Source of the DNA: Mesonia sp. K7
GTDB lineage: Bacteria > Bacteroidota > Bacteroidia > Flavobacteriales > Flavobacteriaceae
Length of the DNA: 64,000 bases
Reading direction: 5' to 3'
NCBI RefSeq assembly: GCF_003233725.1
Contig: NZ_QKQV01000002.1
Location: forward strand, 62,001-126,000
Positions within the stretch are counted from its first letter, which is position 1. Every line of letters starts with the position of its first letter. Of the stretch, positions 17,731-24,582 are shown in pieces. Under the pieces are notes generated by a model that had not been told where the DNA came from, made no database searches, and was given only the letters and a program-made list of their open reading frames with translations. A program made the position numbers and the translations under genes.

Positions 17731-20700
17731 TTAGAACCTAAATCCAAAATCAAAACTAAATCGCCACCCATCTTCTCCTCTGAACATATTAAACTTTCCG
17801 TTGATTGATTGTGCTCCGACTATGTATAGTCCGCCGCCAAAATCGTTGTGCCATCTTTTACTGTCTTCGTCACCTAACCAAACCCGACCTAAATCTGCCC
17901 CAGCAAAAAGACCAATTTTTATGGGGACAATTCGGGTTCTAAACTGGTTAAAGGTATAGCGAAGATCTGCTCCTGTTGCAAGAGAGGATTCACCCATAAA
18001 ACGTTCGTTTCGGTAGCCTCGCAAACCATTATCACCACCAATCCATGCGGCTTGGTAGATTTCAAAATCATCACTAAAGTTAAATTTAGAATCTGCATGC
18101 GTATTGATTACCCATTTTCTATTTCGGGAAATCGCATTATAAAATTCTAGTGAGGGCTCAAGATACCCATAAAATTTATTGGTATCTGCTGTGTTTATAT
18201 TTCCACCAAGAGTGACCTTAAAATCCATACCTCTTGTTGGGATAAGACGATTGTCATAGCTCTCATAACGATAAGTTCCTTCTACACCAGCAAAATACTT
18301 TCTATCGTAAAACTTGTCATCGGTTGTAAAAAACTGTTCGTCTAAAAACCTATCATGATCTTCTCTTATTCTCACCGATTCTAAAGTCAGTAAATATTCA
18401 AAATAGCTTCCAAAAGGAGTAGCCTTTTTCAAACCAGCTTTAAAACCATATTTATTGATTCGCATTCGGTTATAATCCATCGATTCACCATCTATTTCGT
18501 CATTATTGGTTTCGTTTCCATAACCAAAAAAGTTCATCGTATAACTCGGACTCGTATAATAAGCGTCTGCAGCGAAATTATAATTACCTATAAAGTTTGC
18601 AAATTGTGTTTCTAAATTTAAATCGAAAGCGTCTGTAGCAAAATAGTAACCTACTCCTAAGCGCAGCTGTGAGGTATAGGGATTTCTTTTGAATTTATAT
18701 TTATTGAAGGTTGTTTGTACCCCTAATCTAATACCATCGTCAGGATTGTATCCGAAACCAGGCAAATATGAAGTAGATTCGTAAATACGTTTATCTTTAT
18801 CATAGGTGTTGATATCGTATTGATCTGTTAATCTTAACTTGGCATCACCTATTTTGTCAAAAGTATTTGGCATCGATTGAAAGTCATAGATTTTTATACG
18901 TTCACCATTTTGAGCTTCATAGGTATCATTTTCTTTACCTCCTATTATTTTAATTGGGATATAATCTTTGGAGCTTCCTGTAATTAAAAACTGATCCTTA
19001 TCTCGTAAGCCGTAAATCCAAATATCATTCGTTTCCTCTAAAGAATAGATTTTATCACTCACCATAGATGAGCGTTTGCCTTCTATATTTCTATAAATTT
19101 TTACACGGGTTTTTCCCTCGGGAAGCCGCTCTATATCTATAAAATCATCTTTGTCTGTTGCGGTAATAATGGCCAGTTTTGCCATATGATTGTAATAACG
19201 CTCTGCTATTTCAACAATATTACCTCGGCGTTTCTTTAAGTTTTCGATAATTAGTTTGGTAGACTCTTGCTCATATATTTCTTGAGGCAATTTTAAGAAA
19301 GCTTCTTCGATTACTTGGTCTGTAATATTTTCTTGAATGTATTTTGCTTGCTGCATCCATTCTGTTTTACCCGTGTTTTGAAGGACAGACCTATCTAAAC
19401 CAGTTGCACTAAGGTTAAACCAAGCAATGTCATTGATGTTTTCACCGTAAGAACCAAATTGATTTCCAAAACCTACAACCCCGCGTAAAGTACCAAAAAA
19501 AGCACCATCAAAATTAGAAAAAACTTGGTCTCTATCTTGTGGAATTGGTTCAAAAATATGATCACCATTACTTTCTATATGTTCAGCCCAACGCCATTGG
19601 TCTTGATGCCTGTCCCAATCACCAATAAGCATATCAAAAATTCTAGCTTTGATATAAGTGGTTTCGTCTATTCTAAATTTTTCGTCACGACGAATATGTT
19701 CAAACATTGAGTTGGTGGTTTCTATGCTTATTAAATCTTCACCAAATGCTTTTGATGCCAACCAGTTGTCTTCTGCTCTTTTCTCCAAGGTAAAAAGTTC
19801 GTTACCAAACTCATCATTAAACCTTCCAAGCGATTCTTGTTTGGGAATATAATAAATTTTGATGTCGGTATTTTTTAGATTAATCGCATTCGAAAGATGC
19901 GGAATGGTAGAAAAAGCATAAGGGTGTGCTGCGGTATAAAAATCCTCTACAGCACTATCAACTAGGGTGTTCTCAAAATTTTCACCAATAGACTCATCTT
20001 TATAAGCTTGTGCTTTTAAAAAATCTATTGCACTCTTTTTTAATGCGGTAAGTGTATATTGCTTACCTTCTTTGTCTCGTAAACGTAAAGATCGTGACTG
20101 TCTTCCTCCACCACTTTCCATGACTTCCAAACCGCCATGAAGGGTATCTAAATAAGCCACCGGAACTTCAATTTTTACACCATATAAATCGTTGTAATGC
20201 GAACCAAAAAGACTTTTGTAAACTTTACTTTCTTGAGTACTGTCTCTATCATAAATAGAGGCTAAAATGGTTTGTTGTTGTATTTTATCTTTTGAATAAG
20301 GTGTTAAATCGTACTCTACTTTTGCTTCAAAAACCTCTTGTTGAAACATCAGTTTAGCTTTGTTGTTCTCATTTTTATAGAACTGCACCCAAGTAGAGCC
20401 GTCTTTAAAAACATCGTAAATGGCAAAACCTTGACCTGCATAACCAAAGATACCGTTCTTTCTTAAGCTTGTATAACTAACTTTAGAGCCAGAACCCGAA
20501 ACAATCTGATGAATATTTTCTTCGATATTGTACTGTAAATTATGTTCGTGCCCTGCTACAAACATGACGTGTGTATACCCAGAAGCCATGGCTTTAATAC
20601 GATCGACCATATTTTTATAGCGTTGGTTTTGTGCATCCTGTATAGAAACTCCGCCTGTTGTTCTTACAAGTGTTGCTAAGGAACCCAAAACGGGTAAAGG

Positions 20701-21480
20701 AATGCTTCTTGACGAAGGAAATAAGTGCCTTGAGATATGATAATTACCTCCATGAACACCGTTAGTCAATAAAGGATGGTGCATCGCAACTACCACGTTC
20801 TTGGTTTCGTATTTTCTTAAGGTATTATCTAGCTCTTGAAGCATAGCTTCACGTGTCTTTACTTTAGGACAATTATCATTGATGGTTGGATTATTATCCC
20901 AGTTTTCGAGATACCACTGCGTATCGATGACTACAAGCACCACTTCCTCTGATATTTCTCTAATTTCTATACCACATCCTGTTGGTGGAGACCAAACATC
21001 TTCTCTACCCATTTGTTCCCTGATAAAATCTCGCTGCTCATTTAGACTGTTTATTCTGTCTCCATACCAATCATGATTTCCCGGAACAAAAAGCACATTC
21101 CCTTTAAAGTTTTCTACCGTTTCTAATTGAGAATTCATAATATCCTCAGATTCTGATCTGGTTTTATCACCAGCAGGAGGCATTCCAACAGGGTAAATAT
21201 TATCTCCAAGAAAAAGTGCATGGGCGTTTTTTGTGGTAATTGAATCTACAGCACTCAAAGAATCGATAATATTTTTAAATGCGATTGTTCCGAAAGAAGA
21301 GCCATCTTTTGGCATATAACCAGCGTCACCTATCAAGAAAAAACGATGCTCTATTTTCTTATGAGTTGGGTAAACAACTGCTTTTTGAGCTTCTTTATCT
21401 TTATACTGCGGAAAATCGTATGTGGAACAACCCAACAGAACTAAGGTGAAAATTGTTAGAACAATGTTATTTTTTTTCAT
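17731..21480 (-). CDS. Lipoprotein metallophosphoesterase fused to an Omp85-like outer-membrane barrel
   Basis: A 1249-residue envelope protein. Residues 1-18 are a lipoprotein signal (LLGC, C18). Residues about 45-360 form a calcineurin-like phosphoesterase with all metal motifs: GDAG (51-54), GDN (92-94), GNHD (134-137), H234-H235 and GHEHN (310-314). Residues about 450-700 are not part of that fold; they contain a glycine-rich SGGGRQSRSLRLRD, then GDWDRHQDQW at 620-629 and PIPQDRDQVF, a spacing that recalls kinase-like (HipA/Fam20/CotH) catalytic loops. From about 940 to the end alternating aromatic strands form a surface-antigen/Omp85-type barrel, with motif GGDNGLRGYRNERF and a terminal phenylalanine. 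Substrate unknown; phosphatase activity is well supported, kinase activity only suggested. Confidence 0.82.
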   Translation of the reverse strand: MKKNNIVLTIFTLVLLGCSTYDFPQYKDKEAQKAVVYPTHKKIEHRFFLIGDAGYMPKDGSSFGTIAFKNIIDSLSAVDSITTKNAHALFLGDNIYPVGMPPAGDKTRSESEDIMNSQLETVENFKGNVLFVPGNHDWYGDRINSLNEQRDFIREQMGREDVWSPPTGCGIEIREISEEVVLVVIDTQWYLENWDNNPTINDNCPKVKTREAMLQELDNTLRKYETKNVVVAMHHPLLTNGVHGGNYHISRHLFPSSRSIPLPVLGSLATLVRTTGGVSIQDAQNQRYKNMVDRIKAMASGYTHVMFVAGHEHNLQYNIEENIHQIVSGSGSKVSYTSLRKNGIFGYAGQGFAIYDVFKDGSTWVQFYKNENNKAKLMFQQEVFEAKVEYDLTPYSKDKIQQQTILASIYDRDSTQESKVYKSLFGSHYNDLYGVKIEVPVAYLDTLHGGLEVMESGGGRQSRSLRLRDKEGKQYTLTALKKSAIDFLKAQAYKDESIGENFENTLVDSAVEDFYTAAHPYAFSTIPHLSNAINLKNTDIKIYYIPKQESLGRFNDEFGNELFTLEKRAEDNWLASKAFGEDLISIETTNSMFEHIRRDEKFRIDETTYIKARIFDMLIGDWDRHQDQWRWAEHIESNGDHIFEPIPQDRDQVFSNFDGAFFGTLRGVVGFGNQFGSYGENINDIAWFNLSATGLDRSVLQNTGKTEWMQQAKYIQENITDQVIEEAFLKLPQEIYEQESTKLIIENLKKRRGNIVEIAERYYNHMAKLAIITATDKDDFIDIERLPEGKTRVKIYRNIEGKRSSMVSDKIYSLEETNDIWIYGLRDKDQFLITGSSKDYIPIKIIGGKENDTYEAQNGERIKIYDFQSMPNTFDKIGDAKLRLTDQYDINTYDKDKRIYESTSYLPGFGYNPDDGIRLGVQTTFNKYKFKRNPYTSQLRLGVGYYFATDAFDLNLETQFANFIGNYNFAADAYYTSPSYTMNFFGYGNETNNDEIDGESMDYNRMRINKYGFKAGLKKATPFGSYFEYLLTLESVRIREDHDRFLDEQFFTTDDKFYDRKYFAGVEGTYRYESYDNRLIPTRGMDFKVTLGGNINTADTNKFYGYLEPSLEFYNAISRNRKWVINTHADSKFNFSDDFEIYQAAWIGGDNGLRGYRNERFMGESSLATGADLRYTFNQFRTRIVPIKIGLFAGADLGRVWLGDEDSKRWHNDFGGGLYIVGAQSINGKFNMFRGEDGWRFSFDFGFRF

Positions 21481-21534: not shown

Positions 21535-22719
21535 ATGAGTAATCTTATTGAAAAAACAAACAAGTTTGTTCTAGATTTATTTACTGAAAAATTACCCAAC
21601 ACTTTTATCTATCACAATTATAACCATACGCAAAGGGTCGTTAAAAGTACTAAAGAATTAATTGAAAATTCTGAAATTAATGTTAAAGAAGCCGAGGCCT
21701 TAGTGCTTGCAGCCTGGCTTCATGACACAGGCTATACCGTAAGTGTAAAGGGGCACGAAGAAGAAAGTAAAAAAATTGCAGAGGAATTTTTAAAGAAAGA
21801 AGGAGCCGACCAAGAACTTATCGATATGGTGAAACAGTATATTGAAATCACCAAATTTTTAACCATTCCCGAAACACTTCCAGAAAAAATAATTAAAGAT
21901 GCCGACTCTTCTCATATCGGCAAAGATTATTTTGAAGAAACGACCGAATTTTTACGTCAAGAACTTAAAATTCAAAACCTAAAAAATTATTCTCCAAGCG
22001 AGTGGATAGAAGAAAACATCAAGCTTTTTACAGAATTGCACAGATTTTATACGCCTTATGCGGCTGAAAAATGGCGACCTGTAAAAGACAAGAATATGCT
22101 CACGCTTTTAGAAGCTCAGAAAAAATCGAAAGAAAAATTTGAGAAAGAAAAAACCAAGGCAAAACTTAAAGCAAAATATAAAAACGATAACCCAGAGAGA
22201 GGAATACAAACTTTGTATAGAACTGCTTTAAGAAATCATATTAAACTTAGTGATATTGCCGATACAAAAGCCAATATTTTACTTTCGGTAAATGCAATTA
22301 TTATCTCATTGGCATTAGCCAATATTATCCCTAAGCTCGATGCGGCTTCCAACCGACACCTCATGATGCCAACTTTGGTTTTGGTTTGTTTTAGTGTGGC
22401 TTCTATTATTTTATCGATTATGTCTACTCGACCTAATGTTACCAGCGGTGAATTTACCAAAGAACAAATCAAAAAACGAGAAGTAAATATTCTATTTTTC
22501 GGTAATTTCCATAAAATGAAGTTTGATCAATACAATTGGGGAATTCAAGAGATTTTAAAAGATAAAGACTATGTTTATGAGGCTTTAACCAAAGATTTGT
22601 GGCTACTGGGTATTGTCCTTAACCGAAAATATAAGCTCTTGCGATGGACTTATACAATTTTTATGACAGGAATTATTATTTCTGTGGTATTTTTTGTTAT
22701 TGCTTTTTGGACGATGTAA
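21535..22719 (+). CDS. HD-domain protein with C-terminal PycTM (DUF5706) membrane domain
   Basis: Two-part protein of 394 residues. The N-terminal half is an HD phosphohydrolase with H31, H63-D64 and D122/D124 as metal ligands, the set used for cyclic or other nucleotide hydrolysis. The C-terminal part, from about residue 235, carries SDIADTKANILLSVNAIIIS, a second helix (PTLVLVCFSVASIILS) and a third at the very end; this is the DUF5706 family, known as PycTM, the membrane effector module of Pycsar anti-phage systems. No pyrimidine cyclase is adjacent. It is transcribed alone, divergent from the phosphatase-barrel gene, and ends in a strong terminator. A housekeeping role is equally possible. 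Confidence 0.82.
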   Translation: MSNLIEKTNKFVLDLFTEKLPNTFIYHNYNHTQRVVKSTKELIENSEINVKEAEALVLAAWLHDTGYTVSVKGHEEESKKIAEEFLKKEGADQELIDMVKQYIEITKFLTIPETLPEKIIKDADSSHIGKDYFEETTEFLRQELKIQNLKNYSPSEWIEENIKLFTELHRFYTPYAAEKWRPVKDKNMLTLLEAQKKSKEKFEKEKTKAKLKAKYKNDNPERGIQTLYRTALRNHIKLSDIADTKANILLSVNAIIISLALANIIPKLDAASNRHLMMPTLVLVCFSVASIILSIMSTRPNVTSGEFTKEQIKKREVNILFFGNFHKMKFDQYNWGIQEILKDKDYVYEALTKDLWLLGIVLNRKYKLLRWTYTIFMTGIIISVVFFVIAFWTM

Positions 22720-23979: not shown

Positions 23980-24582
23980 TTAGAATTTCGTTGCATGGCT
24001 TTCGTCAAAATAATTTACCAGTGTTGAGACTATTTTTTGCTCTCCTTTGGTGATTGCTTCAATTTTAGACCATGTTGCAGTGGGCATCACTTTTTTTAAA
24101 GGCTGATTTAACTGAGTTATAAGATGAAAAACTTCATTGATTTTTTCATCCCAAATCTGGTGGAAATTTAAAAGATCGTCTGGATAGACTATTTTTCTTT
24201 CGGTACCTTCATCAATTCCCTGAAAAGGCTCTGAAACATTTAGGTAACCATAATCGTCGGTAAGTTGTTCGCCTGGTTGTATATCTCTGATAGCAATTTC
24301 AAAATCGTAGGCCGTAGAAAGACAGTTGGACTTGAAGCTATGATTTACAAATCTGCCAATATCCCAGCATAAGACCAAATTTCCTTTGTTGTTGCGATAA
24401 GAATAAGTATCTAAAATAGATTGGTAAACCTCTTCTAAGTTTTGGTATTCTGAAAGCTTAAACTCCCTATCTAATTTATCTAACACCCAAGTAATTGTTC
24501 CCGCAGGAATAAATTTAGTGGCTACAACGCCGTAACCTATTTCTTTACTAATGAATTTTAGTTCTGTATCTGGATGAATCAT
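23980..24582 (-). CDS. SET-domain protein (putative protein lysine methyltransferase)
   Basis: A 200-residue protein with the main SET motifs in order: GYGVVATKFIPAGTITW (N-terminal SET strand), RFVNHSFKSNC with the N80-H81-S82 pseudoknot motif, and IQPGEQLTDDYGYL containing the conserved tyrosine (Y111). SET proteins use S-adenosylmethionine to methylate lysine side chains. There is no CXCXXXXC post-SET cluster, and the C-terminal 80 residues are a helical extension of unknown role. Bacterial SET proteins may come from eukaryotes or be native; base composition here looks like that of the neighbours. Its target is unknown. It stands alone between redoxin and GAF genes. Confidence 0.8.
   Translation of the reverse strand: MIHPDTELKFISKEIGYGVVATKFIPAGTITWVLDKLDREFKLSEYQNLEEVYQSILDTYSYRNNKGNLVLCWDIGRFVNHSFKSNCLSTAYDFEIAIRDIQPGEQLTDDYGYLNVSEPFQGIDEGTERKIVYPDDLLNFHQIWDEKINEVFHLITQLNQPLKKVMPTATWSKIEAITKGEQKIVSTLVNYFDESHATKF

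Follow-up and report, generated by a model that had tools for sequence, protein, structure and literature searches.

Mesonia sp. K7 encodes a 1249-residue lipoprotein in which a calcineurin-like phosphatase and a domain of predicted kinase-like (PKL) fold precede an Omp85 beta-barrel, and our preferred reading, to which we give a probability of about 0.6, is of a two-enzyme outer-membrane device whose phosphatase and kinase-type phosphotransferase would together set a phosphorylation level. The gene lies in a 64,000-nucleotide stretch of contig NZ_QKQV01000002.1 (the window), where its open reading frame fills exactly 17731-21480 of the minus strand and the plus strand of the same interval carries stops throughout. 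The N-terminus of the protein, MKKNNIVLTIFTLVLLGC, contains a lipobox with Cys18, and the parts are arranged as follows.

17731..21480, minus strand: whole gene, 1249-residue phosphatase, kinase-like and Omp85-barrel lipoprotein (ORF; of 148 sampled genera of Flavobacteriaceae, 110 yielded relatives in a whole-protein search)
21427..21480, minus strand: signal peptide and lipobox (LVLLGC18), residues 1-18 (sequence; N-termini of relatives)
20311..21345, minus strand: calcineurin-like metallophosphoesterase domain, about residues 46-390 (PF00149, E 1.9e-7; PDB; ligand conservation)
19156..20223, minus strand: predicted kinase-like (PKL) domain, about residues 420-775 (AF2; VIA-align; hhalign to CotH and HipA)
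20089..20112, minus strand: glycine-rich loop GGGRQSRS, residues 457-464 (conservation in kinase-intact copies)
19588..19635, minus strand: catalytic loop region DMLIGDWDRHQDQWRW, residues 616-631 (aligned to CtkA LLGNFDRHNGNW, CotH GNWD and HipA NCDDHTKN)
19519..19548, minus strand: putative metal-binding motif PIPQDRDQVF, residues 645-654, with D649 and D651 (hhalign; aligned with CotH IPYDYD)
18811..19155, minus strand: beta-rich linker from kinase-like domain to barrel, about residues 776-890 (AF2 full-length model)
17734..18783, minus strand: 16-strand Omp85 beta-barrel without POTRA domains, residues 900-1249 (PF01103; model; Foldseek)

Towards its two ends the protein matches Pfam families above their curated cut-offs (Metallophos PF00149 at residues 46-250, Omp85 PF01103 at 965-1212), bearing out the first-pass annotation, which had described a complete calcineurin-like phosphoesterase joined to a C-terminal Omp85 barrel. 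No Pfam domain falls between residues 250 and 965, and NCBIfam added nothing specific. All eight metal ligands of the phosphatase (D52, D93, N94, N135, H136, H234, H311 and H313) and all five PF00149 metal-ligand motifs (GDxG, GDN, GNHD, HH and GHxH) are present, and a sequence search of the PDB with this domain returned purple acid phosphatases (E ~8e-5). The 16-strand C-terminal barrel of the Omp85 superfamily is seen in the PF01103 match, in the full-length AF2 model (residues 50-1249; pLDDT 88, pTM 0.86) and in Foldseek, whose best matches for the barrel were BamA/TamA. The N-terminal POTRA domains of BamA/TamA-type proteins are absent from that model: it contains no POTRA-like unit, and what stands ahead of the barrel is the kinase-like domain followed by the beta-rich linker.

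Fusion of a phosphoesterase to an Omp85 barrel was catalogued in 2014 as the Omp85 'Metallo' subfamily (Heinz and Lithgow, PMC4104836), in which PF00149 likewise stands N-terminal to the barrel and to which the window protein very probably belongs. That study read PF00149 as a metalloprotease domain; the words 'kinase' and 'phosphatase' are both absent from its text and, since 'kinase' appears nowhere, the middle domain is undescribed there. None of the papers searched describes this domain, and the F. johnsoniae BAM paper mentions neither phosphatase nor kinase. PlpD-type patatin-Omp85 fusions also place an enzyme N-terminal to an Omp85 barrel, but theirs is a lipase accompanied by a POTRA domain, whereas here it is a phosphatase accompanied by a kinase-like domain. 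As a candidate relative we considered a Riemerella metallophosphoesterase, cited as a T9SS effector in PMC10202324. The phosphatase-Omp85 fusion has been known since 2014; what is new is a kinase-like family and an architecture built from known parts.

Single-sequence searches with the middle domain (Pfam, NCBIfam and PDB) gave no match, and it is revealed only by profiles, structure and profile-profile comparison. An AF2 model of residues 392-800, run with an alignment of 87 sequences, is confident (pLDDT 86, pTM 0.88), and on re-alignment with VIA-align all of the best 50 solved structures listed were kinase-like folds or complexes containing one. First among them stood CotH of Bacillus cereus (Z 14.4 over 257 residues, 4.1 A), followed by PI4K-II (Z ~13-14), CtkA (12.4) and PI3K/VPS34 and HipA (~11), with PI4K-III/PI3K-type kinases also in the ranking; the top Foldseek matches were HipA and PI4KII-alpha, at low TM-scores. 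The model has the two-lobe fold of the PKL superfamily with a catalytic-loop Asp and a metal Asp, and its predicted order of helix, DWDRHxDQ loop, strand, turn, strand and DRD matches the kinase catalytic loop, beta7-beta8 and metal Asp. The first-pass annotation had proposed a kinase-like reading of this region, against which a different fold for residues 440-760 would have told; AF2 and VIA-align gave a kinase-like fold, and Foldseek matches and profile-profile scores lend the reading further support.

The profile comparison, which that annotation had suggested as a check, links the middle domain to both CotH and HipA. Bacteroidota genomes supplied the sequences for the CotH and HipA alignments, against which hhalign scored the middle-domain family at 41.0 (CotH) and 29.4 (HipA); 20 column shuffles reached at most 24.8 and 20.4, respectively, the phosphatase, barrel and linker segments scored 15-18, and unrelated domains and the 20 shuffles together spanned 11-25. 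CotH and HipA, accepted relatives, score 42.3 with one another, and by this measure the middle domain is as near to CotH as CotH is to HipA. The register brings GDWD over CotH GNWD, PQDRD over CotH PYDYD and DRHQDQ over HipA DDHTKN. Family models gave weak matches in single members, which point the same way: neither CotH (PF08757; best member E 0.013, no match for the window protein) nor HipA_C (PF07804; best E 0.24 among family members) reached its curated cut-off, Fam20C (PF06702) matched weakly in one of 31 members (E 0.00087), and no CotH match was found in the organism's own genome. Fam20 chains were missing among the structural matches listed, which is not evidence against kinship. It might be argued that the kinase likeness is fortuitous and the fold an unrelated one, as the middle domain of the window protein has no Pfam or NCBIfam family, the single-sequence PDB search was empty and one PDB profile (A2) recovered unrelated weak matches without CtkA; the best match of the other (A1) was CtkA at the catalytic loop, at a marginal E of 0.029 on which we do not lean. 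Given a confident model, the unbroken run of kinase-like folds in the VIA-align ranking, the profile-profile controls and the motif register, this view is very improbable and largely refuted.

The best structural match is CotH (PDB 5jd9), a Bacillus spore-coat kinase, its GxWD catalytic loop and xDxD metal motif lying in register with those of the middle domain; a further likeness is that CotH does most of its work at a surface, that of the spore. It differs in sharing only 13% identity and in retaining the Asn for which the middle domain has Gln, and no fusion of CotH with a phosphatase or barrel is described. PI4K-II and CtkA/HipA have the same fold (Z 11-14; ~10-14% identity), and CtkA has the stretch LLGNFDRHxxxW in common with the middle domain, but these proteins are cytoplasmic or eukaryotic and without an envelope barrel. 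Fam20 kinases act in a secretory compartment, though in animals and not bacteria.

The motifs on which the kinase reading was first based (SGGGRQSRSLRLRD, GDWDRHQDQW at 620-629 and PIPQDRDQVF at 645-654) were all found where they had been reported. In an alignment of 54 relatives, reaching down to ~24-30% identity, G457/G458, K482, D616, D621, W622, D623, R624, H625, Q628, D649 and D651 are conserved at 93-100%, and the near-invariant set further includes GG(L), GGGxQ and W629; judged by this conservation, the motifs are no chance feature. The loop had been placed correctly, although D621, originally put forward as the catalytic Asp, gives way to D623, the Asp of 'DRH', as the more likely candidate because GDWD meets CotH GNWD and DRHQDQ meets HipA DDHTKN. 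In CotH, D228 is catalytic and D228Q is inactive (PMC7821199). D623 and D649, both aligned to CotH, HipA and CtkA, are conserved in all 189 kinase-intact full-length copies. The PKL catalytic-loop Asn (PKA N171) is replaced by Gln628 in nearly all members, with Asn at this position in at least one relative (L048); as fold and both Asp residues are in place, we do not take Gln628 as excluding PKL membership. The putative helix-C Glu (E566) is frequently Val among relatives, which, like Gln628, counts against an active kinase. R478 lies within the predicted third strand of the AF2 model and would sit where the usual ATP-binding Lys stands. Every kinase-only copy has this Arg, as do 128 of the 129 copies whose two sites are both intact. 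The one exception is the window copy with Thr478 (20047-20049), so its kinase site could be impaired or weak, or K482 may take over.

Relatives of the middle region (380 residues as query) occur in 111 of 296 Bacteroidota genomes, and matching plasmid records come from Bacteroidota only, annotated as hypothetical or not at all. Open-frame lengths in the phylum sample (at least 1150 residues in 82 of 138 matches, 780-1100 in 41, below 600 in 15) accompany three architectures: phosphatase, kinase-like domain and barrel; kinase-like domain and barrel without phosphatase; and kinase-like domain alone, then bearing a signal peptide, anchor or lipobox. The middle domain is thus an independent unit. 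At two loci (L036 3936-7275 and L037 2629-7648) two or three kinase-domain-only proteins adjoin, one member of each set having a changed catalytic Asp (GDWSRR), which may mean that a pseudokinase is paired with a kinase, as Fam20A is with Fam20C. Elsewhere (L042 3058-5628) a protein of 857 residues, the size of middle domain plus barrel, has a degenerate Gly loop and catalytic loop (GDWNETTENW) and appears from its sequence to be the clearest pseudokinase of the set.

Evidence on the workings of the two sites comes from their reciprocal loss. Eight phosphatase ligands and six kinase residues were scored over 206 distinct full-length copies: both sites were intact in 129, the phosphatase was lost and the kinase intact in 60, the phosphatase was intact and the kinase altered in 15, with one more carrying H625D alone, none had lost both, and one was incomplete. 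Phosphatase ligands vary widely in the phosphatase-dead copies, yet none of the 60 has a change in the six kinase residues; the same six are kept in most copies without any phosphatase domain, and of 10 free-standing kinase-like proteins that have no barrel, 7 keep the catalytic set. Fourteen of the 15 kinase-altered copies directly adjoin a phosphatase-dead, kinase-intact copy, several pairs lying a few tens of bases apart on the same strand, and at some loci (L270, L271 and L273) three copies stand in a row as kinase, phosphatase, kinase; the fifteenth (L307) has such a partner elsewhere in its genome (L283). The organism's own genome holds a second copy (L034 3068-6655, contig C9) with decayed phosphatase site and intact kinase site, adjoining genes that look EgtD/EgtB-like in sequence. 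Reciprocal loss has a Fisher p of 0.004, which is descriptive only, as it ignores kinship and the copies are not independent; testing by independent pairs had no power.

A tree of linker and barrel only distinguishes the two kinds of loss. Loss of the phosphatase takes 7-8 changes, at least seven of them on starred branches, and alteration of the kinase comes down essentially to one ancient event, seen in a clade of 14, and to one or two isolated copies, a pattern that led us to reject many independent events. The sister group of the 14 (support 89) is a clade of 10 kinase-only copies, so the core is explained by one duplication after which the two copies divided the labour; further kinase-only partners come from two other clades. 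G457-G459, present in nearly all kinase-intact copies, are gone or eroded in most kinase-altered ones, and D649 has become Asn in 12 of 16. Within the clade H625E, Q628H and D649N are fairly uniform and D623 and D651 survive, the latter a point against the two-enzyme reading, and because the changed set is so uniform 'altered' is a safer term than 'dead'. Reciprocal loss points to two working sites that can be separated. A pseudokinase acting as a binding or docking module in place of the missing POTRA domains, with the phosphatase as the only enzyme, would fit a model devoid of POTRA, the barrel that accompanies the domain in two of the three architectures and the persistence of the domain where its site is altered. 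A pure scaffold, however, has no need of catalytic residues, and their retention in every phosphatase-dead copy and most barrel-free proteins makes this explanation decidedly unlikely.

Where the protein would act bears on what it could do. Omp85 proteins have a periplasmic N-terminus, and the surface-export signal of Bacteroidota consists of acidic residues following the lipobox Cys. No such signal stands directly behind Cys18 of the window protein, and among the 117 copies whose lipobox can be recognised, 92 have no acidic residue at the four positions past the Cys; for these reasons the catalytic domains most likely lie on the periplasmic face. The periplasm is thought to contain little ATP, the main difficulty for the kinase reading, and neither there nor at the outer membrane is ATP-dependent phosphorylation thought possible. 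An active enzyme of a less conventional kind could avoid this difficulty by moving AMP, glutamate or phosphoryl from a donor other than ATP (e.g. polyprenyl pyrophosphate), its phosphatase having an unrelated substrate. Other kinase-like families perform such chemistry, SelO AMPylation and SidJ glutamylation, and besides scarce ATP, Gln in place of the catalytic-loop Asn and the clade's uniform H625E, Q628H and D649N, unlike random decay, would suit it. SelO and SidJ are both among the PKL families of a published survey (PMC9758233). The conserved D623 and D649, which define phosphotransfer, and best structural matches that are mostly known phosphotransferases (CotH, CtkA, PI4K-II and HipA among them) weigh against it, and we regard it as unlikely.

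No conserved dedicated partner or substrate was found for the window protein. Its divergently transcribed neighbour (21535-22719, plus strand) encodes a protein that joins an HD domain to a membrane domain of the PycTM (Pycsar effector) type. Of 81 related loci, 47 have a homologue of this protein close by, which in 40 lies upstream on the opposite strand; a functional link is possible. A SET-domain protein is encoded close by (23980-24582, minus strand), and a look-alike (L035 2218-2802) adjoins a kinase-only gene in another genus.

As we picture the two-enzyme device, an N-terminal lipid anchor and the C-terminal barrel would hold both catalytic domains at the outer membrane. The kinase-like domain, belonging to the atypical CotH/PI4K/HipA branch of the fold, would use the GGGxQ loop, K482/R478, D623, Q628 and D649/D651 to bind nucleotide and metal, and would phosphorylate an envelope molecule, either a protein or a lipid or glycan. 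Closeness to PI4-kinases makes a lipid or glycan target thinkable, and a lipid substrate is possible because the phosphoinositide kinases LepB and AnkK fall into one cluster with several members of the FAM20/CotH group (PMC9758233). The phosphatase would dephosphorylate that target or one related to it, the two sites thereby setting its phosphorylation level, and the two activities could also work from separate neighbouring genes. More broadly, and at somewhat less than even odds, we may be looking at a new and widespread family of Bacteroidota envelope kinases, most of which would share one outer-membrane polypeptide with a phosphatase of opposite action and so provide the periplasm or outer membrane with a self-contained switch for reversible phosphorylation; in one flavobacterial lineage, duplication would have split it into kinase copy and phosphatase copy.

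An unstudied and widespread outer-membrane protein of flavobacteria may attach phosphate groups in the envelope and also take them off, and in one lineage the opposing modules, elsewhere fused in a single chain, have been separated into neighbouring genes, an unusual natural experiment. If the domain is active, many Bacteroidota would own an envelope phosphorylation system absent from current family models, and the origin of the phosphoryl donor outside the inner membrane would become a testable question.
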